IMG/VR virus record: IMGVR_UViG_3300034198_012353 | Span: 1-36,843 of that record | Length of the DNA: 36,843 bases | Source: a virus | Strand: one strand, 5' to 3' | Shown here: one piece after another, positions 11,671-35,428 of the stretch | Numbering within the stretch: position 1 is the stretch's first letter | Layout of the letters: the number at the start of each line of letters is the position of its first letter | Translations under genes and position numbers: made by a program | The notes under the pieces: generated by a model | The model's input: only the letters and a program-made list of their open reading frames with translations | The model's database searches: none | What the model was told of the DNA's origin: nothing

Positions 11671-12408
11671 ATGAATATTTTAGTAATCGGTGATACGTGT
11701 ACTGATGTTTTTATTTATGGTGCATGTGACAGAATTTGTCCAGAAGGTCCAGTACCTATTTTTAAACCCATTAAAAGGGTTGAAAATAAAGGTATGGCAG
11801 GAAATGTTTATCAGAATTTATTATCATTAAACATTGATAATGTTGATATTATTACAAATCATGAAACAATAGTTAAAACAAGATACGTCGAAGAGAAGTC
11901 AAATCATTTAATTGTTAGAGTTGATGAAAACGACACTGTTGATAATAGTTTCAATATAAACGATATTGATTTTGAAAAATATGACGCTGTAGTTGTTGCA
12001 GATTACGATAAGGGATTTTTAACAATTAACGATCTCATTGCGATATCTAAATCACATGAATTAACTTTTTTAGATACAAAAAAAATTTTAGGTAAGTGGG
12101 CAGATAATTTCACATTTATTAAGATAAATGAATTAGAATGGAGTAATTGTGAAAAAGCGGGACTTGACTATAATTACTGGAAAGAAAAATTGATTATTAC
12201 TAAATCTAGTAAAGGTTGTTTATACAATAATTTTATTTACCCTGTTGAAAGCAATTTAGATGTTAGGGATATAAGTGGTGCTGGTGATACATTTATGGCA
12301 GCATTTTCGTGCTCATATGTTAAAACATTAGATATGGTTGTTTCATTAAAATTTGCCAATAAATGTGCTAGCACAGTCATACAAAAAAGAGGGGTTAGTA
12401 CTCTATGA
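11671..12408 (+). CDS. PfkB-family sugar kinase, HldE/RfaE kinase-domain-like, 245 aa
   Basis: The order of motifs matches the D-glycero-beta-D-manno-heptose-7-phosphate kinase half of HldE: GDTCTDVFIYG near the N-terminus, KGMAGNVYQNL at 40-50 (the GGAANVA motif), KTRYVEEKSNHLIVRVD at 69-85, VADYDKG at 109-115, and the catalytic DISGAGDTF at 200-208 with D206. At 245 aa it is shorter than the roughly 315-aa bacterial domain. It overlaps by 4 bp with a cytidylyltransferase-fold partner, giving a split HldE. The two would phosphorylate and then nucleotidylate a sugar phosphate for surface glycan or for a phage glycosyltransferase. The exact sugar is not determined. Confidence 0.82.
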   Translation: MNILVIGDTCTDVFIYGACDRICPEGPVPIFKPIKRVENKGMAGNVYQNLLSLNIDNVDIITNHETIVKTRYVEEKSNHLIVRVDENDTVDNSFNINDIDFEKYDAVVVADYDKGFLTINDLIAISKSHELTFLDTKKILGKWADNFTFIKINELEWSNCEKAGLDYNYWKEKLIITKSSKGCLYNNFIYPVESNLDVRDISGAGDTFMAAFSCSYVKTLDMVVSLKFANKCASTVIQKRGVSTL

Positions 12409-12821
12409 AAAAAGTTTGGATAAATGGATCTTTTGATATTTTACATATCGGTCATATCCGTCTTATCAATTTTGCTAAATCCTTTGGTTCTGTAATGGTG
12501 GGTCTAGACACCGATCAACGGATCTCTGAAAAAAAAGGACCATCTAGACCATTAAACACACTATCTGATAGGGTGGAATTTATATCTAATATCAATGGGG
12601 TTAACTCTGTTGTGTCTTTTAGTTCAGATTTGGAACTTTCTAATTTAATTAAAGAATATAATCCGGATTATTTTGTCATTGGGGACGATTATTTGGGTAA
12701 ACAAATAATAGGTTCAGAATATGCTAAAGAAATTGTATATTTCAATAAAATAAATGGTTATTCTACTACCGAGTTAATTCATAAATGTAAAAACGATGTT
12801 ACAAAAACCAGTCATTACTGA
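12405..12821 (+). CDS. cytidylyltransferase-fold nucleotidyltransferase, HldE C-domain-like, 138 aa
   Basis: The N-terminus GSFDILHIGHI (8-18) holds the H-x-G-H signature of this superfamily, with H14 and H17. GLDTDQRISEKKG and the late STTELI motif are typical of the RfaE/HldE adenylyltransferase domain, which makes ADP-heptose from heptose 1-phosphate. The full domain is present at normal length. It overlaps the kinase gene upstream (ATGA) and the cupin gene downstream by 26 bp, so the three are one translational unit. Other members of the superfamily use CTP and glycerol phosphate, so the substrate needs testing. Confidence 0.82.
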   Translation: MKKVWINGSFDILHIGHIRLINFAKSFGSVMVGLDTDQRISEKKGPSRPLNTLSDRVEFISNINGVNSVVSFSSDLELSNLIKEYNPDYFVIGDDYLGKQIIGSEYAKEIVYFNKINGYSTTELIHKCKNDVTKTSHY

Positions 12822-13167
12822 ATGTTGCAAAATCCCAAAAGGGTGGGGTCACGAGTTAATTATTGAAAATAATGAAATGTATTGTGGTAAGGTTTTAGTT
12901 TTTAAATCAGGTTGTAAATTTTCAATGCATTATCATTTATTAAAAGATGAGACATGGTATGTTAATAAGGGTGAATTTACATATAGATTTATTGATACAT
13001 CAGTTGGTATTACACATGAAACACATTTAAAAGAAGGTGATGTTGTTAGGCAAAGGCCAGGTCAACCACATCAATTAATCGCACTAACTGATGGTGAAAT
13101 TTTTGAAGTGTCTACAACGCATTTTGATGAGGATAGTTATAGAATATATAAAGGAGACATAATATGA
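12796..13167 (+). CDS. cupin-domain protein, mannose-6-phosphate isomerase type II-like, 123 aa
   Basis: Both cupin motifs are intact. Motif 1 runs G-x5-H45-x-H47-x4-E52-x6-G (HYHLLKDETWYVNKG), and motif 2 is GDVVRQRPGQPHQL with H92. The order and the W-G-H-E start (PKGWGHELIIEN) resemble small sugar-phosphate isomerase-like cupins found in surface-polysaccharide clusters. It probably isomerises or binds a sugar phosphate linked to the HldE-like pair with which it is translationally coupled. The metal-binding residues are present. The specific reaction is unknown. Confidence 0.75.
   Translation: MLQKPVITECCKIPKGWGHELIIENNEMYCGKVLVFKSGCKFSMHYHLLKDETWYVNKGEFTYRFIDTSVGITHETHLKEGDVVRQRPGQPHQLIALTDGEIFEVSTTHFDEDSYRIYKGDII
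13151..13156 (+). promoter_or_regulatory. Shine-Dalgarno-like AAGGAG
   Basis: It lies 7 nt before the ATG at 13164 and inside the last codons of the cupin gene (Lys-Gly-Asp). It is one of few SD-like sequences in the window and could be coincidental to the coding sequence. Confidence 0.3.
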
Positions 13168-13568
13168 AAGAAAGAAGATTTTTACCAACATTATCAGAGT
13201 TAATAGATAGGTTATCTATTGTACAATTAAAAGAAGTTAAAATTCCAGAACACAAAACAGAGTATGCTCAGGAAATTTCTGATATTGTTCATGACATTCA
13301 ATTAATAATGAATGAAAAAGATGTTGTTATAACAGCAGAATTATTAAGGGCGGTAATTGTTTGTGCTCAAATGAATGCACATATTTGGTATAATGAGACC
13401 AACGTTAGAAGTGGTGTTTCTGGTCCAAGTATGTTAGCATTAACCCATGGAATAAATGGAATTAGAAATACTGCAAAAAATAAAATACAAGAGGTTGTTG
13501 GGGGTAGGAAAGATTATAAAATTGATTGTATTGCTGCGGACTTCAAAGATTGGGAAGTTAGTTGGTAA
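13164..13568 (+). CDS. hypothetical protein in sugar-activation operon, 134 aa
   Basis: A helical soluble protein. It begins with LPTLSELIDRLSIVQLKEVK and has a central AQMNAHIWYNETNVRSG segment. The L-x-E-L-I-D-R-L-S-I-V start and the N-x3-W-x-x-E segment vaguely recall small proteins (DUF4254 type) encoded in polysaccharide clusters, but this is a weak memory-based resemblance. Its start overlaps the cupin stop by 4 bp, and its end overlaps the convergent SGNH-like gene by 11 bp. It is probably co-expressed with the kinase, nucleotidyltransferase and cupin. Confidence 0.7.
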   Translation: MKERRFLPTLSELIDRLSIVQLKEVKIPEHKTEYAQEISDIVHDIQLIMNEKDVVITAELLRAVIVCAQMNAHIWYNETNVRSGVSGPSMLALTHGINGIRNTAKNKIQEVVGGRKDYKIDCIAADFKDWEVSW

Positions 13569-18964: not shown

Positions 18965-19303
18965 TTATTTATTTTCAAAGGCCTCGTATAAACTTTTTAT
19001 TTCAGCACATCTTTCATATTCTTCTAATTCTTCATAATATGGTATTAGTTGATCTATTAGGATATCATATTCGTCTTTTTTAAATATAAATTCGGTGTCC
19101 CATGAAAGTGGACCAATATCAGTAGAAACTAACAAAGTTAAACTACGTTTCCTGCTAATTTTTAATTCATTATAGATCTGTAAAACACCTTCATAAATTT
19201 GACCTTTGTTTGTGTCATAAAGTTGTTTAAAATCTCGATATTTTTTTTTTTCGATTTGCACCGTTATAAATGGTGTTTTTCTACTATTTGGTGTCTTTTT
19301 CAT
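18965..19303 (-). CDS. hypothetical protein, 112 aa
   Basis: A soluble charged protein with a Lys-rich start and an acidic helical end (YYEELEEYERCAEIKSLYEAF). No motif is recognised. Its start overlaps the end of the RNA ligase gene by 20 bp, so it is probably co-translated with the RNA-repair genes. The terminal helix resembles short alpha-helical repeats that scaffold other proteins, but that is only a pattern. Confidence 0.7.
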   Translation of the reverse strand: MKKTPNSRKTPFITVQIEKKKYRDFKQLYDTNKGQIYEGVLQIYNELKISRKRSLTLLVSTDIGPLSWDTEFIFKKDEYDILIDQLIPYYEELEEYERCAEIKSLYEAFENK

Positions 19304-20327
19304 TTTTAAATGGCTTTGAGTATGATGGGTATATTAGTTTCCAAATTATGTGGTGTGTTTGTTTTCCATTATACATTGCGAATAGTAATGATGAATGTGG
19401 ATATTGTTTTGCTTTTTCAGCAAACTCTTTTTTAGTTTCGATCAATGAAAATATTGAATTGAATATGTCATTATAATCATTATCAATGTTTTCAAACCTT
19501 ACTGTTAAATCACGGGCCGTTTCTTTAACCCAGTTATAAAATTCATCTGGAACTTTGTTAAGGATCTCATCAAATGACTTACCGTCTTTTAAAATTTCCC
19601 AAATATCTCTATTTGATATGTTTGTTAAAATTTTATGTAATCGTTTATACTCGTCTCCTTTGATTTTCATACGAAAACCATTCTTGAAACGAATAACGTA
19701 TCCTTCTCTATCTTTGCTAATTTCTTCTTGCAATAGATCGTATCCTTCGCCCCAAGTTTTATATGTTGTGACAACTTCAAATCCAGCGTCTTGCATCCAA
19801 AATAAACTACTGTCTGGTATTTCGTCACCAGTTTCAGTATGAATACCACCAATAACAACTAATTTTTCTTCGCTCCCATAATCAACAACAATTCTATTTT
19901 CCGGATAGATAATTTCAAACAAATATGTGTTATCTTTTCTTAAAGCACTAATATCATGTTTATCAAGAATTTCTTTTCCTTTAATTGCTTGTGGTGATGT
20001 AAATGATCCACGCGTTGCTAATATCCATTCATTTTCATAATTAAAAAGAATACCTAAAGATCCATCCATCTTTTCATAGACAACATAATCTTCATTTGGG
20101 ATATCTTCAGGTTTATGTTCTTCGTAGTTAAAAAATTTCTTAAATGGTCTTGCAACAATATCACCTTTTGAGTTGGTCACCAATCCACGACACATAATAG
20201 TTACATCGTCCCACAATCTATCGTATTGAACTTTTGGTGTATAGTTCCAAATAGTTAAGTCGAATGTAGGGTGGGCTTGTTTATGTAACAAACCGTCTTG
20301 ATAGTATTTTTCTAAAATTTCTAACAT
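19284..20327 (-). CDS. T4 Rnl1-like RNA ligase, 347 aa
   Basis: Nucleotidyltransferase motifs are in order: the nucleophile motif I at K86-M-D-G (YEKMDGSLG); motif III at about 135-147 (YLFEIIYPENRIV); motif IV at 208-214 (EGYVIRF); motif V at 219-227 (RMKIKGDEY). An upstream CRGLV (46-50) matches the ARG-box of Rnl1-type ligases. The length is close to T4 Rnl1 (374 aa). I used the internal ATG at 20327 because it follows the stop of the upstream 75-aa frame and gives a normal N-terminus. The kinase-like gene nearby makes a classical kinase-ligase RNA-repair pair, which in T4 repairs host-cleaved tRNA. Confidence 0.9.
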   Translation of the reverse strand: MLEILEKYYQDGLLHKQAHPTFDLTIWNYTPKVQYDRLWDDVTIMCRGLVTNSKGDIVARPFKKFFNYEEHKPEDIPNEDYVVYEKMDGSLGILFNYENEWILATRGSFTSPQAIKGKEILDKHDISALRKDNTYLFEIIYPENRIVVDYGSEEKLVVIGGIHTETGDEIPDSSLFWMQDAGFEVVTTYKTWGEGYDLLQEEISKDREGYVIRFKNGFRMKIKGDEYKRLHKILTNISNRDIWEILKDGKSFDEILNKVPDEFYNWVKETARDLTVRFENIDNDYNDIFNSIFSLIETKKEFAEKAKQYPHSSLLFAMYNGKQTHHIIWKLIYPSYSKPFKNEKDTK

Positions 20328-20329
20328 TA

Positions 20330-20557
20330 TTATATGCGTCGGTATATGCCAGTAACAACTGACCATTTAAACCAAGTGAGAGACAAATATAAACCAACAA
20401 ACCCATCCGCAAAAGATTTTGGTGAATGAGTTTCTAAATAAATGTCAATTGTGGGTAAAATGTGAAAAGACCATTGGTGAGTAAATGTGTTAAAGTGTGT
20501 CCTCATATAAGGTTTTGGTTTTATTGTTTCAGTAAATGAATTAATAAATTTACTCAT
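20330..20557 (-). CDS. small hypothetical protein between kinase and ligase, 75 aa
   Basis: It exactly fills the space between the kinase-like gene (ends 20558) and the ligase start (20327), which supports its being real. It is aromatic-rich (WSFHILPTIDIYL, GLYLSLTWFKWSVV) with one moderately hydrophobic segment near the C-terminus and a basic YRRI tail. No family is recognised. Position alone links it to RNA repair. Confidence 0.6.
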   Translation of the reverse strand: MSKFINSFTETIKPKPYMRTHFNTFTHQWSFHILPTIDIYLETHSPKSFADGFVGLYLSLTWFKWSVVTGIYRRI

Positions 20558-20980
20558 CTATAGTTTAACTTCAAACCTGTTTTTCATTTGTATTATTTTG
20601 TCTTCTGGAACCCCGTGGATATTTGATCCATTATGTTTATTTTCAACTATAACACTATGAACCCTATATCCATATCTTTCAGCCATTTCGTAATATGGTA
20701 TCATTTCCCAATCTTGGGTAAACGTATTAGCGACAACGATCTTAAATGTCTCCAACTTCATTTTTTCAGCACATCTAACTTGACAAGAATTATGTGCTTC
20801 TTTTAATTTACTACCGTCAAAATGATATTCACCCCTTTCATTTACAAAAAAATCATCTGCAGATAAAACGTCTACCGACCCTCCTGGGGTTGATAATATT
20901 ACAGATGCCAAAGTGGTTTTTCCTGAACCAGGTAACCCCCTAAGTAATATTAATTCTCCTTTATATGTAACATCATCCAT
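20558..20980 (-). CDS. P-loop polynucleotide/RNA 5'-kinase-like protein, 140 aa
   Basis: Walker A GLPGSGKT occupies 15-22. A following LSADDFF (39-45) supplies the Asp pair for the phosphate acceptor, as in T4 Pnkp and N4BP2-like kinases. The family segment NTFTQDWEMIPYYEMAERYG lies at 85-104. There is no phosphatase domain, unlike T4 Pnkp, so it would cover only 5'-phosphorylation. It is coupled to the RNA ligase through the 75-aa gene. A nucleoside-kinase role is an alternative but less likely given the neighbours. Confidence 0.85.
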   Translation of the reverse strand: MDDVTYKGELILLRGLPGSGKTTLASVILSTPGGSVDVLSADDFFVNERGEYHFDGSKLKEAHNSCQVRCAEKMKLETFKIVVANTFTQDWEMIPYYEMAERYGYRVHSVIVENKHNGSNIHGVPEDKIIQMKNRFEVKL

Positions 20981-21682: not shown

Positions 21683-21690
21683 TATATTTG
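21683..21690 (+). promoter_or_regulatory. Bacteroidota-type -7 box TATATTTG
   Basis: A perfect TAnnTTTG match ending 19 bp before the peptidase ATG at 21710. No clear TTTG is seen at the -33 position. It is probably read by host sigma, suggesting early expression. Confidence 0.5.
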
Positions 21691-21709: not shown

Positions 21710-22507
21710 ATGGAAAATTTTGTGAATATGGGGCTTCTAACTGATTTATTATCAGTGCCTTCTGAGACATTTGACGAATGGGACATGGTTTTTTTTCTAT
21801 CCAAGTATTTGGATAAAATGGATTATGAGTACGATGTGGATGAATACGGTAATATTTTTGTGACAAAAGGTGATGGTGCAAATAAGCCATTAGTATGTGC
21901 ACATATTGATACTGTACATAAAAAAACCACAATCAACATTCGTGAAGTATGGCTACCTAGAACTAGTTGTTATGGTCAAAAATATGACCAAAACGAGACA
22001 TTGTTATGTTTAAAGGGTTATACTAATGATGGTAATGAAACCGGATGTGGTGGTGATGATAAATGCGGAATTTACGTATGCTTAGAACTTTTAAAACGAG
22101 TTGATAACATTAAAGTGGCGTTCTTTGTATCTGAAGAAATTGGTTGTGTTGGTTCAAGTAAGTGTGACGCTGATTTTTTCAATGATGTAGAGTACGTCGT
22201 ATCATATGATGGTCCTGGAAATAGATTAGTTACTGAAATATGTAACGGAGTTAGAGTATTTGATAGAGATAGTAAGTTTTTTGAAATTGTATCAAAAACA
22301 TTTGACGAGATTAATTACGAGCCAGTGTACGGTAATCATCCATACACTGACATATACATGATTAAAAAGAGATTTAATATTGATGGAGTTAATTTATCTT
22401 GTGGGTATTATAACATGCACAGTCCGTCGGAATATGTTTGTGTCGACGACTTAAATAAAGCCATCGACACTGGTTTAAATTTAATCAGAAATCTTAGTAA
22501 TAACTAA
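21710..22507 (+). CDS. M20-like metallopeptidase, minimal catalytic domain, 265 aa
   Basis: Metal-site motifs are in order: AHIDTVH (H65, D67), GGDDKCG (D116/D117), SEEIGCVGS (E142/E143), SYDGPG (D167) and a terminal NMHSPSEYV (H237). These match the dinuclear zinc site of M20/M28/M42 amino- and carboxypeptidases, closest in feel to peptidase T. At 265 aa it appears to lack the lid/dimerisation domain of M20 enzymes. There is no signal peptide, so it would hydrolyse small peptides or amides in the cytoplasm. It has its own host-type promoter and ends overlapping the Clp gene tail-to-tail by 27 bp. Confidence 0.85.
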   Translation: MENFVNMGLLTDLLSVPSETFDEWDMVFFLSKYLDKMDYEYDVDEYGNIFVTKGDGANKPLVCAHIDTVHKKTTINIREVWLPRTSCYGQKYDQNETLLCLKGYTNDGNETGCGGDDKCGIYVCLELLKRVDNIKVAFFVSEEIGCVGSSKCDADFFNDVEYVVSYDGPGNRLVTEICNGVRVFDRDSKFFEIVSKTFDEINYEPVYGNHPYTDIYMIKKRFNIDGVNLSCGYYNMHSPSEYVCVDDLNKAIDTGLNLIRNLSNN

Positions 22508-24499
22508 AGCATTCTTTCTATAAACTAATTTATAGTTTTTGTTTTCTTTAATTGTTCCTCTTAGAATTTCATCACTTAAATAATCTTCACATAAAGATTG
22601 AATAATTCTTTTTACAGGTCTGGCGCCATATTCTTCTTGTTTGTTTCTATTTAATATCTCATCAATAACAGAGTTATCAAACTTGATATTATAATTTTTC
22701 TCACTTAATCTTTTCGCTAGTTTTGTTACTTCTAAACCAATAATAGATTTTAAAGAGCCCTCGTCTAACTTATTGAATAGAATAATATCATCAACCCTGT
22801 TTAAAAATTCAGGATTGAATTGTTGTTTAAGTGCTTTTTGGATCATTGTTTTTCTAACTTCATACTTTTGTTCTTCACTAGAATTTGTTGAAAAACCAAC
22901 ACCGTTACCAAATTCAGAAACTCTTTTTGCACCGACGTTTGATGTCATTACAATCAATGTATTTGTAAAATTAACTTTTCTACCGAAAGAGTCAGTCACA
23001 TGACCTTCATCTAATATTTGTAATAAAATATTGAAGACGTCTTTATGTGCTTTCTCAATCTCATCAAATAAAATAACTGAAAATGGATTGTTCTTAACCT
23101 TTTCTGTTAATTGACCGCCTTCGTCATATCCAACATAACCTGGAGGAGCGCCAACTAATCTTGAAACGGCGTGTTTTTCCATAAACTCACTCATATCAAT
23201 TCTTATAACTTTATCTGCTGAACCAAAAATTAATTCTGCTAATATTTTTGCGAGATATGTTTTACCAACACCCGTTGATCCCATGAATATAAATGAACCA
23301 ATTGGTTTTTGTCCGTCTTTAATACCAACTCTATTTCTTCTTATTGCTTTAGATATTGTAGCAATAGCATCTTCTTGCCCAATAACTCTATCAGCCAATC
23401 TTTTCTCTAAACTTAATAAATTTTGAGTTTCTTTATCATCTAATTTAGAAATAGGTACACCGGTCATAAAAGTAACCATTTCATAAACATCATCAACGTT
23501 AACTGGTATTTTATTATCTCTTTGGCTTTCTGCCCAATTTTCTTTTTCAGTATCTAACTTCTTCATCACCTTTCTTTCTTCGTCCCTTAGTTTCGCCGCT
23601 TGTTCATAATTTTGAGTTTTAACGACCTCTAATTTTTTATCACGGATAACATCAACTTCTTGTTTTAATTTTTCAATAGATTCTGGTACTTTAGTTATAA
23701 CTCTTTTTTCTGAACCTAATTCGTCTAATATGTCTATCGCTTTGTCTGGAAACTGTCTGTCTGTAATATATCTACTTGCCAATTTAACAATTGTTTCCAT
23801 AACATTGTCTTCATATGTTACTCTATGATATTGCTCGTACGATGATTTTAAATTTTTTAATATTTCAATAGTTTCATTTTCAGTTGGTTCTTTTAAAATA
23901 ATTTTTTGAAACCTTCTAACTAAGGCACTATCTTTTTCAATATGTTTTTTAAATTCATCAAACGTTGTTGCGCCGATACATTGGATTTCACCCCTTGCTA
24001 ATGCTGGCTTTAAAATATTTGCAGCGTCCATTGATCCTGAGGCGTTTCCGGCACCAACCATTGTATGTAATTCATCAATAAAAAGTATTACTTGTGGGTT
24101 TTCAGATAATTCATGTAGTATCGCTTTTATCCTTTCTTCAAATTGTCCTCTATAATTTTTACCAGCAACTAAAGAAGTTAAATCTAAAGATACCAATCTT
24201 TTATCTAAAAGATTTGTTGGACAGTTACCTTTGATGATCATCAATGCTAATTTCTCAACAAGCGCAGATTTACCGACACCGGCATCACCAACAATAACCG
24301 CGTTATTTTTTTTCTTTCTAGAAAGAATTTGTGCTATTCTTTTAACTTCAACATCTCTACCTACTATCGGATCAATTTTACCCTCCTCCGCTAACTTATT
24401 CAAATCCCTTGAAAAATTATCAAGAATTGGTGTTGTTGAATTGTTCTTTTTGTTCTTAGGATTTGTCTTAGGACCATCTTCAAAAAAATCTACTGACAT
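22481..24499 (-). CDS. ClpC/ClpA-like AAA+ unfoldase lacking N-domain, 672 aa
   Basis: Two AAA+ modules are complete. The first has Walker A GDAGVGKS (71-78) and Walker B ILFIDE (138-143). The second has Walker A GSTGVGKT (407-414), Walker B VILFDE (475-480) and the sensor-2 GAR at 625-627. A UVR-like middle segment (297-311, NYEQAAKLRDEERKV) marks ClpC affinity. VGF at 534-536 matches the ClpP-docking loop. The usual N-terminal substrate/adaptor domain (about 145 aa) is missing and replaced by a 25-residue polar leader. I chose Met at 24499 because the longer start runs over a -7-like box. No ClpP is encoded here, so host ClpP would be the partner. Confidence 0.92.
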   Translation of the reverse strand: MSVDFFEDGPKTNPKNKKNNSTTPILDNFSRDLNKLAEEGKIDPIVGRDVEVKRIAQILSRKKKNNAVIVGDAGVGKSALVEKLALMIIKGNCPTNLLDKRLVSLDLTSLVAGKNYRGQFEERIKAILHELSENPQVILFIDELHTMVGAGNASGSMDAANILKPALARGEIQCIGATTFDEFKKHIEKDSALVRRFQKIILKEPTENETIEILKNLKSSYEQYHRVTYEDNVMETIVKLASRYITDRQFPDKAIDILDELGSEKRVITKVPESIEKLKQEVDVIRDKKLEVVKTQNYEQAAKLRDEERKVMKKLDTEKENWAESQRDNKIPVNVDDVYEMVTFMTGVPISKLDDKETQNLLSLEKRLADRVIGQEDAIATISKAIRRNRVGIKDGQKPIGSFIFMGSTGVGKTYLAKILAELIFGSADKVIRIDMSEFMEKHAVSRLVGAPPGYVGYDEGGQLTEKVKNNPFSVILFDEIEKAHKDVFNILLQILDEGHVTDSFGRKVNFTNTLIVMTSNVGAKRVSEFGNGVGFSTNSSEEQKYEVRKTMIQKALKQQFNPEFLNRVDDIILFNKLDEGSLKSIIGLEVTKLAKRLSEKNYNIKFDNSVIDEILNRNKQEEYGARPVKRIIQSLCEDYLSDEILRGTIKENKNYKLVYRKNALVITKISD

Positions 24500-24514
24500 A
24501 CTATAATATTTTAA

Positions 24515-24522
24515 CAAAAATA
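24515..24522 (-). promoter_or_regulatory. Bacteroidota-type -7 box TATTTTTG
   Basis: TAnnTTTG match about 15 bp upstream of the chosen Clp start on the minus strand, supporting the shorter N-terminus. The -33 box is not clear. Confidence 0.4.
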
Positions 24523-24627
24523 ACAAAAAAAATTCGTAAAAAAAAATATATGCAGATTGGTTAAAGAATGTGTTTAATTTCCTTTTTTAAAGTTTTTTAT
24601 GTATATTACTGTCAATAAACTATTTTT

Positions 24628-29570: not shown

Positions 29571-31346
29571 ATGAGTCAAAAAATAGAACAATTAAAAGAG
29601 TATGCTCGTATTATAAAAGATACCCCATACGCACTTAGAACATACCTACAAACGTTTGATAATACTCAAAAGAAATTTGTACCATTAGAATTGTTTCCTG
29701 ATCAAATACAATTATTAAAAGATTATGAAACATATAATGAAAATATTACTAGAAAATATAGACAAGCGGGTGTTACTACGGTAACTGCAGCATGGTTATC
29801 AAAAAAATTACAACTAGCAAAACCAGATAATCCTGAAAGAGTTCTAATTATTGCAAACAAACGCGATACAGCAATTGAGATGGCTAATAAAGTTAGACAT
29901 TTCTTAGACCAGTGGCCAGAATGGATTAATGTTGGTTTTTCTCCGGATAAAAACTCGGAAAGTAGATTTAGATTAAACAATGGTTCTGAAGTAAAAGCGG
30001 TAGCAACTTCTGCGGATGCGCTTCGTGGTTTTACCCCTACAGTACTTGTATTTGATGAGGCCGCGTATATTGAAGCGGGTGAAGATTTCTGGGCTGCATC
30101 AATGGCGTCATTGTCAACGGGTGGTAAGATTATATTAATCTCAACACCAAATGGCTACGATCCAATTTATTGGGGTGTTTATGATCAAGCAATAAGAGGT
30201 ATTAATGATTTCCATATTACCGATTTAAGATGGTTTAAAGATCCACGTTACACGAAAGATTTAGCATGGATAAAAGTTCCAGATATTGTTCATTACATGT
30301 TGAATAGAGAACAATATAATGATGATGAAGTGATACTAAAAGAATTTGATCTTTCAAAATATGAAGAATTGATGGACCAAGGTTATCAACCATATTCAAG
30401 TTGGTTTGAATCTATGTCTAAAAAATTCAAATATGATAAAAGAAAGATTGCACAGGAATTGGAATGTGATTTCTTAGGTTCTGGAGATAGTGTTATTCCT
30501 TCTGAAACAATGGAAAGAATTGCTAAAACTATGATTAAACAACCTAAAGAAAAGTACATGCAAGGTACTTTATGGTTGTGGAAAGAACCAGAACAAGGTC
30601 ATAGATACATTATGGGGGTAGACGTTAGTAGAGGAGATAGTGAGGATTTCTCATCAATAAACATTATTGATTTTGACGCTAGAGAACAGGTAATGGAATA
30701 CATTGGTAAAATACCACCAGATGATTTAGCGGCTATTGCTTATAAATGGGGAATACTATATGATGCATTTATTGTTGTGGATATAACCGGAGGTATGGGT
30801 GTTGCGACTTCTAGAAAACTACAAGAAATGAATTATAAAAATTTATTCATTGACGGTATTAACACAAAAAACATATGGGAATATAATGCCAAAGCAATGG
30901 AAAAAATCCCAGGAATAAATTTTAATAACAAAAGAACACAAATAGTCGCATGTTTTGAGGAACAATTAAGACATGATTTTATAGTTAGATCAAATAGATT
31001 ATTGAATGAATTAAACACATTTGTTTATCTAAATGGTAAACCAAACCACATGAAGGGATCACATGATGATGCTATCATGAGTATGGCTATCGCTTTATAT
31101 GCTGGGGATATTTCGTTTACCCAACTAACAAGGAACGAAAATCAAGCAAAAGCAATGGTTGATTCCTGGATGTTAGCGGAAAGGACATATGATTCTGGTA
31201 AAGGGTTTTATTCATATGGAACATCTTTTGATGGTGTGGGATCAATGCAAATGGATCAATCTCAGTATGGTAATCAGCAAACTCAACCAGCAAAACAACT
31301 TTATCAAGAATATGGTTGGCTATTTGGAGGTAAAAAGGGTTCATAA
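29571..31346 (+). CDS. gp17: large terminase subunit (T4 gp17-like), 591 aa
   Basis: The ATPase half has a P-loop-like RKYRQAGVTT (61-70), Walker B VLVFDE (158-163) and coupling motif ISTPNG (190-195). The RNase-H-like nuclease half has D351 (GVDVSRGDSEDF), D404 (VVDITGG) and D499/D500 (SHDDAIMSM). The length matches gp17 (610 aa). The P-loop lacks the usual GK[ST] Lys: Val68 is in its place, while K62 lies upstream, a deviant form known in some terminases. It cuts concatemers and pumps DNA into the prohead. It is followed 48 bp later by the portal gene. Confidence 0.96.
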   Translation: MSQKIEQLKEYARIIKDTPYALRTYLQTFDNTQKKFVPLELFPDQIQLLKDYETYNENITRKYRQAGVTTVTAAWLSKKLQLAKPDNPERVLIIANKRDTAIEMANKVRHFLDQWPEWINVGFSPDKNSESRFRLNNGSEVKAVATSADALRGFTPTVLVFDEAAYIEAGEDFWAASMASLSTGGKIILISTPNGYDPIYWGVYDQAIRGINDFHITDLRWFKDPRYTKDLAWIKVPDIVHYMLNREQYNDDEVILKEFDLSKYEELMDQGYQPYSSWFESMSKKFKYDKRKIAQELECDFLGSGDSVIPSETMERIAKTMIKQPKEKYMQGTLWLWKEPEQGHRYIMGVDVSRGDSEDFSSINIIDFDAREQVMEYIGKIPPDDLAAIAYKWGILYDAFIVVDITGGMGVATSRKLQEMNYKNLFIDGINTKNIWEYNAKAMEKIPGINFNNKRTQIVACFEEQLRHDFIVRSNRLLNELNTFVYLNGKPNHMKGSHDDAIMSMAIALYAGDISFTQLTRNENQAKAMVDSWMLAERTYDSGKGFYSYGTSFDGVGSMQMDQSQYGNQQTQPAKQLYQEYGWLFGGKKGS

Positions 31347-31394: not shown

Positions 31395-33227
31395 ATGGCA
31401 GATCAAAATTTAACAATATTTCAAAGGTTAACGAAGATATTCGGGTTCCAAGGTCAAGTACCTCAGCCACCATCCTTTAATTTTTCAAAAGAAGAACTTC
31501 TTAGGACCGACGATCCTGCTGTTTTTGAAAAAGAAAAACTACAGCATCAACAAAGTCAATATCTTTTTGATAAATGGACTAAACTAGATAATTCATTATA
31601 TAACCAATCAGTTTATTATGAACCAAATAGAATTGCTGCGTATTATGATTTTGAATCAATGGAGTTCACTCCAGAGGTTTCGGCGGCATTAGACATTTAT
31701 GCAGAAGAGTCAACAACAGTTTCAGAAAAGGGACATATTTTAGAAATCTATTCAGAATCTAAAAGAGTAAAAAACATATTAATCGATTTATTTGAAAATA
31801 GATTAGACATCAATACAAACTTACAAATGTGGGCAAGAAACATGTGTAAGTATGGTGATAACTTCTTGTACTTAAAAGTTAATCCAGAAGATGGGAAAGG
31901 TGTAGTCGGTTGCCAACAATTACCAAATATTGAAATTGAAAGATTAGAAGGCGCATTGAATGCTAGTCCACAACAAAGGGATGCAAAATTACCTGCTAAA
32001 GAACTTAGATTTAGATGGAAGAATAAAGACCTAGAATTCCAAGCATGGGAGATTGCTCACTTTAGAATTATGGGTGATGATAGAAAGTTACCTTACGGTA
32101 CTTCTATGTTAGATAAAATTAGAAGAATTTGGAAACAACTTTTACTTGCTGAAGATGCTATGTTAATCTATAGAACTTCAAGAGCACCGGAAAGACGTGT
32201 TTTTAAAGTATTCGTTGGTAATATGGACGATAAAGATATTGAACCATATGTACAACGTGTTGCAAACAAATTTAAACGCGACCAAACAGTTGATTCTAGA
32301 AATGGTCAAGTGGATATGCGTTACAACCAAATGGCGGTTGATCAGGATTATTTTATTCCTGTTCGTGATCCAGCAACGCCAAACCCAATTGAAACATTGG
32401 CTGGTGCTCAAAACTTAGGTGAGATTGCTGATATTGAATATATTCAGAAAAAATTATTAGCAGCCCTTCGTATACCTAAGGCATTCTTAGGTTTTGAAGA
32501 AGTTGTTGGTGATGGTAAGAATTTAGCATTAATGGATATTCGTTTTGCTAGAACAATTAATAGAATTCAAAAATCATTAATACAAGAACTTAACAAGATT
32601 GCATTAATTCATCTTTACATGTTGGACTTGGAAGATGAATTAGATAATTTCTCATTAGGTTTAAGTAATCCTTCCGCGCAATCAGATTTATTAAGAATTG
32701 AAAGTTGGAAAGAAAAAGTTACATTATATAAAGACGCAACGTCTGACCAATCACAAGTTGGTATTTTACCAGTATCGCACACTTGGGCTAAGAAAAATAT
32801 TCTTGGATTTAGTGATAACGAAGTGTTACTTGATTTACAACAACAACGCCTTGAGAGAGCGATGGGATTTGAATTGACAAATACTCAAAACGTAATTAAA
32901 CGCTCTGGAATATTCGATGAAGTAGATTCTAAGTACGGTATTCCTGAAGAAGAGAGAGCAAAAGCCCAGGAAGCCGCAGACGCTGGAGAAGGCGGAGGAG
33001 ATATGGGTGGCGGAATGCCTCCTTTAGGAGGCGGCGGTGGATCAGCACCAGCACCAGCACCAGACGCTGGCGGAAGCGAGCCATTAAGTGAGGGTAAAAA
33101 AGACAAAAAGAAAAAATTACTTTCATTATTAGAAAGCGAAACCGATCATGATTTATTCAATATGGAAAAGGCGCAGAAGAATATTTATGAAATAGAAAAT
33201 AAACTAAACAATTTACTAAACGATTAA
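31395..33227 (+). CDS. gp20: portal protein (T4 gp20-like), 610 aa
   Basis: It carries the gp20 hallmarks: an AAYYDFESMEFTPEVSAALD opening, EIAHFRI, LPYGTSMLDKIRRIWKQL, then RAPERRVFKVFVGN and the IPKAFLGFEE-to-ALMDIRFARTI block. The C-terminus carries a Gly/Pro/Ala linker (about 530-560) and a charged helix (EKAQKNIYEIENKLNNL), longer than needed and similar in style to neighbouring acidic proteins. The portal nucleates head assembly and is the DNA channel that docks the terminase. The gene order terminase-portal-core-protease-scaffold-capsid matches T4, without the tail genes 18 and 19 that sit between 17 and 20 there. Confidence 0.96.
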   Translation: MADQNLTIFQRLTKIFGFQGQVPQPPSFNFSKEELLRTDDPAVFEKEKLQHQQSQYLFDKWTKLDNSLYNQSVYYEPNRIAAYYDFESMEFTPEVSAALDIYAEESTTVSEKGHILEIYSESKRVKNILIDLFENRLDINTNLQMWARNMCKYGDNFLYLKVNPEDGKGVVGCQQLPNIEIERLEGALNASPQQRDAKLPAKELRFRWKNKDLEFQAWEIAHFRIMGDDRKLPYGTSMLDKIRRIWKQLLLAEDAMLIYRTSRAPERRVFKVFVGNMDDKDIEPYVQRVANKFKRDQTVDSRNGQVDMRYNQMAVDQDYFIPVRDPATPNPIETLAGAQNLGEIADIEYIQKKLLAALRIPKAFLGFEEVVGDGKNLALMDIRFARTINRIQKSLIQELNKIALIHLYMLDLEDELDNFSLGLSNPSAQSDLLRIESWKEKVTLYKDATSDQSQVGILPVSHTWAKKNILGFSDNEVLLDLQQQRLERAMGFELTNTQNVIKRSGIFDEVDSKYGIPEEERAKAQEAADAGEGGGDMGGGMPPLGGGGGSAPAPAPDAGGSEPLSEGKKDKKKKLLSLLESETDHDLFNMEKAQKNIYEIENKLNNLLND

Positions 33228-33229
33228 AA

Positions 33230-33985
33230 ATGAACAATAAAGTTGGGATTTTAAAAACCAAAATATTAAAAAAACTTACAGAATCTTACACTTCTGATAA
33301 TAAATCAGAAATGAAAAATATTCTTAAACTTATAAAAGAAAACAAAGATTTTAAAGAAATGTATTTGTTTTATGAAGAAATTGAGAACAAATATATCTCA
33401 GACAAAGAGACAGCAAAACTATATGTGGAGGGATTAAGCACAATGTTAAATAACCCAACATTAAAGGGAAATAAGAATAACTTAGAAATGTTTTGTAAAT
33501 CGTTAGATAAAACAATAGGTGATGTTTCAATTAACGAAAATGAATTATATTCAGCATTAGATATATTGAGTGAAAAGGACGCATTGTCAAACATAGAAAA
33601 GAAGGTAATTTCAAAAAAGAAATTAGTTGAACATTTAACAACTAAAAAAGAAATTAACGAATCTAAAGAATCAACATTAGTACCTAACGAAAATTTATTA
33701 AACGCAATATTAACAAGTAATTTTAACGCATTATATTCAAAAACACTTTCTGAATCTGAAAAAGAAGAATTGAAAAATATTTTATCTATTCCTCATAATG
33801 AGATTGAAAGTAAAACAGTTGAATTAAAAGAATCAATTATTAATCAAGTATCAACACTGATAAATGAAGCAAACGATAATGATTTATTAGACAAATTAAA
33901 GACGGTAAAGGACGAGGTCGTTCAAATGCAACCGTCGAGGTATAACTACTTCAGATTAAACGAATTAAAAAATGGACTTAATTAA
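33230..33985 (+). CDS. probable prohead core protein, 251 aa
   Basis: An almost wholly helical, Lys/Glu/Asn-rich protein (KKLTESYTSDNKSEMKNILK, then NILSIPHNEIESKTVELKES). No motif is recognised. It occupies the place of T4 core genes 67/68, between portal and protease, which suggests a prohead core or portal-scaffold role. It starts 2 bp after the portal stop. Its last codons (N-G-L-N-stop) lie in a palindrome shared with the convergent bS21 gene, with an 8-bp overlap of the two coding ends. Confidence 0.7.
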   Translation: MNNKVGILKTKILKKLTESYTSDNKSEMKNILKLIKENKDFKEMYLFYEEIENKYISDKETAKLYVEGLSTMLNNPTLKGNKNNLEMFCKSLDKTIGDVSINENELYSALDILSEKDALSNIEKKVISKKKLVEHLTTKKEINESKESTLVPNENLLNAILTSNFNALYSKTLSESEKEELKNILSIPHNEIESKTVELKESIINQVSTLINEANDNDLLDKLKTVKDEVVQMQPSRYNYFRLNELKNGLN

Positions 33986-33993
33986 GTCCATTT
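33970..33993. terminator. bidirectional palindromic terminator encoding both gene ends
   Basis: A perfect 24-bp palindrome (half-site AAATGGACTTAA), with T tracts on both strands, lies between two convergent genes. Read on either strand it encodes Asn-Gly-Leu-Asn-stop, the last residues of both proteins. Confidence 0.85.
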
Positions 33994-34169
33994 CTTTTTT
34001 GTTCAATATAGATCGCTTTTAATTTCTCATCTCTCTTCTTTACTGAAGGTTTAACATAAACCTGTCTATCCCTCAATTGTTGGATTTGTTTAGTTTTTTG
34101 AACTTTGTTTTTATAAGTTCTTAATGCGGTTTCTATACTTTTTTCTTTCGATAAATCAATAATAATCAT
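33978..34169 (-). CDS. rpsU: ribosomal protein bS21 homologue, 63 aa
   Basis: The full-length bS21 pattern is present: I-I-I-D-L, then SIETALRTYKNKVQKTKQIQ (11-30), LRDRQVYVKPSVKKRDEKLK (32-51), with the KPSV hallmark at 40-43. The end LKAIYIEQKRN, with Tyr54, is of the Bacteroidota type as I remember it. bS21 sits on the 30S platform near the anti-Shine-Dalgarno. In Flavobacterium it helps hide that sequence, so a phage copy could alter which messages are translated. Phage bS21 genes have been reported before (for example in pelagiphages). It is the only minus-strand gene in the head module, and an SD-like GAGG precedes its start. Confidence 0.92.
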   Translation of the reverse strand: MIIIDLSKEKSIETALRTYKNKVQKTKQIQQLRDRQVYVKPSVKKRDEKLKAIYIEQKRNGLN

Positions 34170-34176
34170 AAAGGAT

Positions 34177-34184
34177 TCCTCTTT
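34177..34184 (-). promoter_or_regulatory. Shine-Dalgarno-like AAAGAGGA before bS21 start
   Basis: The GAGG core (34178-34181) is 8 nt from the ATG. Most genes in the window have A-rich leaders with no SD; another SD-like site is at 13151. A TATTTAAA stretch lies about 15 bp further upstream and could be the promoter. Confidence 0.5.
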
Positions 34185-34275
34185 ATTTTAAATATATACA
34201 AATTTTTGGAATTTTAAAAAAATTTCTTTATTTTTATACTTAACACCATTAAAATATAATAATATGAAGAAATAA

Positions 34276-34704
34276 ATGAAATTTGGTAAATTTATTCACC
34301 TTGGTGAATATGAAGAAATTAAAATTGGTTACGGTACCGTAGATTTTAGAAACTTAAAAACCGTTTATGTTAAATTAAACTCCTGGGTAATGCCAACAGA
34401 TGAAATGGCTGATTTTGATAAAACAATTTTAAGGAGTAGAAAGAGAATTAAAGACACAATAAGGGAACATAATCTAAATAATTTATTTAAAAAAGAAAGT
34501 ATTGTCGATCTAGATATTAGAACTAAAGGTATAAAACTAGATAAAAAATCTTTTATGAATCTTGAGGTTACATTATTTGCTGAGAATCAATTCGATATAA
34601 AGAGTAAAGAAATTAAAAATACGCTTAAAAATTTGATTGAAAGTATAGTAGATAACTGTTTAATTGATAGATCCTTGTTTAATTTCAGTAAAACCAAGTT
34701 TTAA
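34276..34704 (+). CDS. hypothetical head-module protein, 142 aa
   Basis: A soluble alpha/beta protein (KFIHLGEYEEIKIGYGTVDF, then SRKRIKDTIREHNLNNLF) ending SLFNFSKTKF. No family is recognised. It lies between bS21 (divergent, 106-bp gap) and the prohead protease. A three-codon frame ATG-AAG-AAA-TAA (34264-34275) abuts its ATG, giving TAAATG. The gap has no other structure apart from AT-rich sequence that may hold promoters in both directions. The function is probably in head assembly, by position. Confidence 0.72.
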   Translation: MKFGKFIHLGEYEEIKIGYGTVDFRNLKTVYVKLNSWVMPTDEMADFDKTILRSRKRIKDTIREHNLNNLFKKESIVDLDIRTKGIKLDKKSFMNLEVTLFAENQFDIKSKEIKNTLKNLIESIVDNCLIDRSLFNFSKTKF

Positions 34705-34741: not shown

Positions 34742-35428
34742 ATGCGCATATTAGGACCAAAAGAAATTGGAAAGGGGATTTTAATAGAATACGACGCAGG
34801 ACATATATCACCTAGCGAAAACAAACATATTTTAAAAGAGATGGAGAATAAAGATACCGATCAGGACTTTATTCTCTTTGCTGTTTTACAGAAATTCGAT
34901 ACACCAAACAAAAACGGTAGAATATACCCAGAAAGAATTCTCAAGAGAGAAAATGACAAGTATCAACAAGTCATGAAAAATGGTTCAGCATTAAATGAAC
35001 TAAATCATCCATCATCATCACTTATCGATTTAGATAGAGTTTCCCATTCAATTCTTGAAACATGGTGGGAAGGTAGAATGTTAATGGGTAAAATCAAATT
35101 ATTTACATCTCCTGGTTGGAGAAAAATGGGTATAGTTTCCACAAAAGGAGATCAAGCCGCTATGCTTCTTTTAAATGGAGCAACCCTAGGTATTTCATCT
35201 AGAGGTGTCGGATCATTAAAAACAGAGAAAGGACAGAATGTTGTTCAAGACGACTTTGAATTAGTTTGTTTTGACTTAGTGTCATCTCCATCTACTCCGG
35301 GTGCATATATCTTCCAAGATATTGCTGATAGAGACAAATTTCAGGAGTCAGTTCAAGAGGAAAAACCAATTGAAAATAATAGAGTTTTAAAATTAATGGG
35401 AAAACTTGATTCTTTCCTTAGCAAATAA
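34742..35428 (+). CDS. gp21: prohead maturation protease (T4 gp21-like), 228 aa
   Basis: Family motifs are in order: DTPNKNGRIYPERIL (53-67), the His motif LNELNHPSS with H89, LGISSRGVGS with Ser152/153 as nucleophile, and FDLVSSPSTPGAY (177-189) as the third conserved block. It is the serine-type assembly protease that degrades the scaffold and trims the capsid protein during maturation. The length is close to gp21 (212 aa). A terminator follows at 35438. The charged C-terminal helix (NNRVLKLMGKLDSFL) may be removed on activation. Confidence 0.95.
   Translation: MRILGPKEIGKGILIEYDAGHISPSENKHILKEMENKDTDQDFILFAVLQKFDTPNKNGRIYPERILKRENDKYQQVMKNGSALNELNHPSSSLIDLDRVSHSILETWWEGRMLMGKIKLFTSPGWRKMGIVSTKGDQAAMLLLNGATLGISSRGVGSLKTEKGQNVVQDDFELVCFDLVSSPSTPGAYIFQDIADRDKFQESVQEEKPIENNRVLKLMGKLDSFLSK

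Follow-up and report, generated by a model that had tools for sequence, protein, structure and literature searches.

In Flavobacterium johnsoniae, the ribosomal protein bS21 helps conceal the anti-Shine-Dalgarno (anti-SD) sequence, and ribosomes lacking bS21 translate the rpsU message via its SD; complete ribosomes translate SD-less messages better (PMC9976891). This autoregulation of rpsU depends on a pairing stronger than about -13 kcal/mol (McNutt et al. 2023, PMC9976891). A bS21 gene placed near the terminase, portal and prohead protease genes has been described in five clades of freshwater Bacteroidota phages, for which Flavobacteriia-like hosts are predicted, in the portions of Chen et al. 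(2022, PMC9723584) considered here. Here, we describe a bS21 gene in the IMG/VR virus record IMGVR_UViG_3300034198_012353, the whole of which (36,843 bases, G+C 31.8%) was analysed and is referred to as the window. The window gene is a new addition to the known bS21 group of T4-like Bacteroidota phages.

The phage bS21 gene and its product

The gene belongs to the following block, in which it is read from the reverse strand.

29571-31346, plus strand: terminase large subunit (phrog_2, E 3.6e-37)
31395-33227, plus strand: portal protein (phrog_213, E 3.9e-61)
33230-33985, plus strand: convergent hypothetical gene, 251 aa, ending in ...LKNGLN and stop, with an 8-bp overlap with rpsU; no Pfam match
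33978-34169, minus strand: phage bS21 (rpsU homologue), 63 aa, with Tyr54; PF01165, phrog_21469, aligned with PDB 7jil chain z
34276-34704, plus strand: hypothetical gene divergent from rpsU, 142 aa; no Pfam match
34742-35428, plus strand: prohead core protein serine protease (PF03420, 76.1 bits)

The translation of 33978-34169 on the minus strand is MIIIDLSKEKSIETALRTYKNKVQKTKQIQQLRDRQVYVKPSVKKRDEKLKAIYIEQKRNGLN. It matches PF01165 with 47.7 bits (cut-off 27), residues 6-54 falling on profile positions 4-52, and its PHROG match is phrog_21469 'ribosomal protein S21'. The protein aligns end to end from Met1 with F. johnsoniae bS21 (PDB 7jil chain z), with Tyr54 in register. These matches bear out the initial annotation in describing a complete 63-aa bS21 with Tyr54. 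The same annotation assigned the protein to the Bacteroidota type and suggested that it could replace host bS21; both ideas are supported and, as the portions of Chen et al. (2022, PMC9723584) considered here show, already published. Position 54 is aromatic in every one of the 61 distinct phage proteins, with Y in 58, H in 2 and F in 1. A tree of 107 bS21 proteins, whose 64 columns give little resolution, groups the window protein with those of two other loci (L005 and L006), among the phage sequences and apart from Flavobacterium. A contig scan recovered relatives with F. johnsoniae bS21 as the query and none with the phage bS21 as the query.

The phage protein shares only about 42% identity with bS21 of F. 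johnsoniae and carries phage-specific changes around residues 21-28, which would suit a protein that acts mainly off the ribosome or as a decoy without replacing host bS21. Such a role is quite improbable, however, because the core residues and Tyr54 are retained in the alignment, and because the bS21 of a Pelagibacter phage is taken up into E. coli ribosomes, at least according to the report as cited in PMC9976891.

Genomic neighbourhood

The order terL-portal-hypothetical gene-bS21 (reverse)-hypothetical gene-protease is identical in a close relative (L004). A bS21 gene is visible in 47 of the 80 loci retrieved with the terminase, and the terL loci without it all stop at most about 2.7 kb past terL, short of the place where bS21 is expected. 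Comparisons of rpsU between the window and two relatives gave dS of 0.28 with dN of 0.007 (L002) and dS of 0.65 with dN of 0.066 (L008). With dS far above dN, the phage bS21 is under purifying selection. The shared block, the survey of terL loci and the excess of dS over dN together indicate that the bS21 gene is a conserved, selected component of this phage group. As for the presumed Bacteroidota host, the nearest named terminases include those of Flavobacterium phages at 29% identity, and the bS21 protein is closest to Bacteroidota.

Two other regions of the window may be mentioned. McNutt et al. (2023, PMC9976891) have put forward, as a speculation, that host bS21 might be the target of a protease made by bS21 phages; the window encodes a 681-aa ClpA/B-type ATPase at 22481-24526 (phrog_4871, ATP-dependent protease). 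A T4 RNA ligase 1 family protein and an AAA_33 (kinase-like P-loop) protein are encoded close to each other at 19284-20366 and 20558-20980, a possible RNA repair pair.

The SD-like stretch upstream of the window gene

34177-34184, minus strand: SD-like AAAGAGGA, 7 nt before ATG; -6.3 kcal/mol, weak and not conserved

The initial annotation pointed to an SD-like stretch before the bS21 start, and AAAGAGGA is indeed present at this place. Pairing was calculated with the 16S tail AUCACCUCCUUUCU, which we take to be that of Flavobacterium. The best pairing of AAAGAGGA with this Flavobacterium tail is 6 bp long, AGAGGA with UCCUUU including one G.U pair, and amounts to -6.3 kcal/mol. Because 7.8% of random 19-mers from the window attain this value, AAAGAGGA is not clearly above chance. 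The four nearest phages, whose protein is 98% identical, have AAAGAGAA instead, with a G-to-A change within the motif that brings the pairing down to -2.9. Among the 44 window genes scored, AAAGAGGA ranks third, behind the genes at 13164 (-9.1) and 12405 (-8.7). SDs are scarce throughout the window, and most of its other genes are SD-poor, as the initial annotation says, but these two have SDs stronger than that of rpsU.

The two genes with the strongest SDs in the window, a cytidylyltransferase-like gene and a nearby unassigned gene (12405-12821, -8.7, and 13164-13568, -9.1), lie in a block that also holds a PfkB-type kinase and a cupin; the two were possibly acquired from an SD-using source.

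Comparison of phage and host rpsU leaders

The main scan of the SD region covered 61 distinct leaders out of 128 phage loci and 75 distinct leaders out of 80 Flavobacterium-type bacterial loci. A wider scan extended to 40 nt upstream and, with further Bacteroidota-type phage loci added, included 68 distinct phage leaders. Loci L265-L276 were omitted from the counts as members of a different phage bS21 family, and the counts are not independent since the sequences are related.

In the 40-nt scan, a pairing of -13 kcal/mol or stronger was found in 0 of the 68 distinct phage leaders versus 75 of the 75 host leaders, which pair between -18 and -23. The strongest displaced SD within 40 nt upstream of the phage genes reaches only -6.5 (L180). 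The leaders of related phage rpsU genes are AT-rich and without an SD, and in the main scan -6 or below is reached by only 1 of the 61, the window's own. Being the strongest of the 61, the window leader may have a modest, lineage-specific effect; at -6.3 it falls short of the roughly -13 kcal/mol, or stronger, that autoregulation requires according to published work. Judged from these leaders, phage rpsU is without the regulatory SD of the host. The useful result is that the exceptional SD of Flavobacterium rpsU is missing from the copies in this phage group. A strong rpsU SD is not universal among bacteria of the phylum, as 7 of 30 rpsU loci in a class-wide Bacteroidota sample are at -13 or below; an rpsU SD has been reported in about 80% of Flavobacteriales (PMC9976891).

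The initial annotation proposed that the phage gene might keep an autoregulatory SD, so that bS21-free ribosomes would translate phage rpsU preferentially. The position of AAAGAGGA at a plausible spacing, its third rank among the 44 window genes and the SD-dependent regulation of host rpsU (PMC9976891) would fit such a mechanism. However, -6.3 is far weaker than both the -13 threshold and the host values, the four closest relatives have lost the motif and the other phage leaders do not have it, and in F. johnsoniae a weak SD (AGGA) has virtually no effect in vivo (PMC9976891). A functional SD in the phage gene is therefore highly improbable. The comparison of leaders shows homologous phage rpsU genes without SD conservation, which that annotation itself had named as grounds for giving up its proposal. 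The SD coupling proposed for phage rpsU is thus not supported, and the contrast with the host runs the opposite way.

Two sequences stand apart. In a distant, 735-kb uncultured huge phage (LR756501, locus L277), AAAGGAGG precedes the bS21 gene at 1001-1177 with a pairing of -12.1 kcal/mol, and only 4 of the 47 ORFs around this gene reach -8 (L315); this phage is a possible exception in which a strong SD was kept or regained. A viral contig (L242) whose bS21 is 76% host-like and lacks an SD was excluded, since the surroundings of the gene look bacterial; by eye, tRNA-like genes, a tyrosine-recombinase-like gene and a hibernation-factor-like gene surround it.

Promoter box and leader length

34189-34196, minus strand: TATATTTA, matching the Bacteroidota sigma-A -7 box TAnnTTTG except at one base; position conserved among phage rpsU genes
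34170-34184, minus strand: predicted 5' leader AAAGAGGAATCCTTT, about 15 nt, its start inferred from the box spacing

In Flavobacterium psychrophilum, the sigma-A box covers positions -12 to -5 relative to the transcription start (PMC9723704). In all 75 host leaders, TAnnTTTG ends 28-31 nt before ATG, and in 65 of them the distance is 29 nt. This spacing, combined with a box at -12 to -5, therefore predicts a leader of 25 nt, which equals the published length of the native F. johnsoniae rpsU leader (PMC9976891). Of the 61 phage leaders, 41 show a corresponding distance of 16-20 nt (35 of them 17-18 nt) and 20 lack the strict box; in the window and its nearest relatives, TATATTTA ends 19 nt before ATG. 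From the 17-18-nt spacing, the phage rpsU leader is predicted to be 13-14 nt long and AT-rich. Such a short spacing is nearly confined to rpsU leaders: among 405 leaders of other phage genes, just 6 have a box 16-20 nt before ATG. Phage rpsU thus seems to be served by a host-type promoter of its own, located so near the start codon that there is little room for the 11-bp SD of the host. Elsewhere in the window, a TATATTTG box at 21683-21690 lies 19 nt before an M42/M20-type peptidase gene (21710), a host-type promoter as in the phage rpsU leaders.

Phage rpsU may also be SD-less simply because these phages and their hosts are SD-less everywhere, with no selection for escape from autoregulation. 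Among 711 ORFs of related phages, few have an SD-like site of -6 or below (1.3% versus 3.1% at a mock position), and the window shares this overall poverty. However, the phage gene is a member of the Bacteroidota bS21 family, within which many Flavobacteriales have kept an exceptional SD in rpsU alone, and the fixed short distance from box to ATG is specific to rpsU leaders. General SD-lessness predicts the same molecular behaviour as escape. The two readings are equally economical, and we give general SD-lessness somewhat less than an even chance.

The palindromic gene end and the C-terminal tail

33970-33993, no strand assigned: palindromic putative bidirectional terminator that overlaps the stop codons of the two convergent genes; an NGLN-stop tail is encoded on both strands

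The last codons of phage bS21 contain the palindrome AATGGACTTAATTAAGTCCATT, which is followed by T on either strand. bS21 and the product of the convergent gene, two unrelated proteins, both end in KNGLN or RNGLN. The third base of the Gly codon covaries as A-T or T-A and that of the Asn codon as T-A or C-G; in both cases, pairing is kept and the changes are synonymous. All 15 positions tested are paired in 78 of the 90 loci having the 8-bp overlap, and host genes as well as phage bS21 genes outside this arrangement (L243-L264) have different ends. Because the palindrome covaries and the ends differ outside this arrangement, the KNGL[N/S/D] tail of phage bS21 is probably, at least in part, a by-product of the putative bidirectional terminator. 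Chen et al. (PMC9723584), in the portions considered here, suggest that conservation of the phage C-terminus may reflect its importance for substitution in ribosomes. The terminator offers an alternative explanation for the conservation of the last five bS21 residues, and caution is needed before the conserved tail is called a ribosome-binding adaptation.

A model for escape from host autoregulation

Phages often carry bS21, and the contrast between leaders provides a concrete, testable account of how host bS21 could be displaced. We propose, with a probability of roughly 0.7, that the phage bS21 message, SD-less and short-leadered, stands outside host autoregulation and that its product enters the 30S subunit and keeps the anti-SD sequestered. 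The phage rpsU message would start about 13-15 nt before AUG. Ordinary ribosomes, replete with bS21, would translate it as they do other messages without an SD, and so it would not be held down by autoregulation. Phage bS21 would then insert into host 30S subunits, where Tyr54 would keep the anti-SD sequestered, thereby favouring SD-less phage messages. The SD-dependent host rpsU would stay repressed, and the host brake would not act on the synthesis of phage bS21. The absence of an SD from the leaders is the reason to propose that phage bS21 is free of this brake, and the continued repression of host rpsU is what we infer from the host system. One can speak of escape only for a host whose rpsU is of the SD type.

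This model can be carried further to a one-sided takeover of the loop, in which host autoregulation silences host bS21 and the phage Tyr54 bS21 progressively replaces it. We regard this extension as rather unlikely. If it is true, ribosomes carrying phage bS21 would still hide the anti-SD, so that host rpsU would remain off.

Comparison with known systems

Like the virus-encoded ribosomal proteins of Mizuno et al. (2019, PMC6375957), the window gene is a viral ribosomal-protein gene under purifying selection; that work, in the portions considered here, is a general survey without an analysis of Bacteroidota phage rpsU leaders. With the phages of Chen et al. (2022, PMC9723584), as far as the portions of that paper considered here extend, the window shares a reverse-strand bS21 that has a hypothetical gene on either side and the terminase, portal and prohead protease genes beyond, as well as an aromatic residue 54 and a diverged N-terminal helix, and no essential difference was found in the gene itself. 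Those portions deal with neither the phage rpsU leaders nor the palindromic gene end, both of which are treated here. With F. johnsoniae rpsU (PMC9976891), the phage gene has in common the protein family, Tyr54 and SD-poor translation. However, the F. johnsoniae message carries an SD of 9-13 bp in a leader of 25 nt, whereas the phage message, without such an SD, has a predicted leader of about 15 nt.
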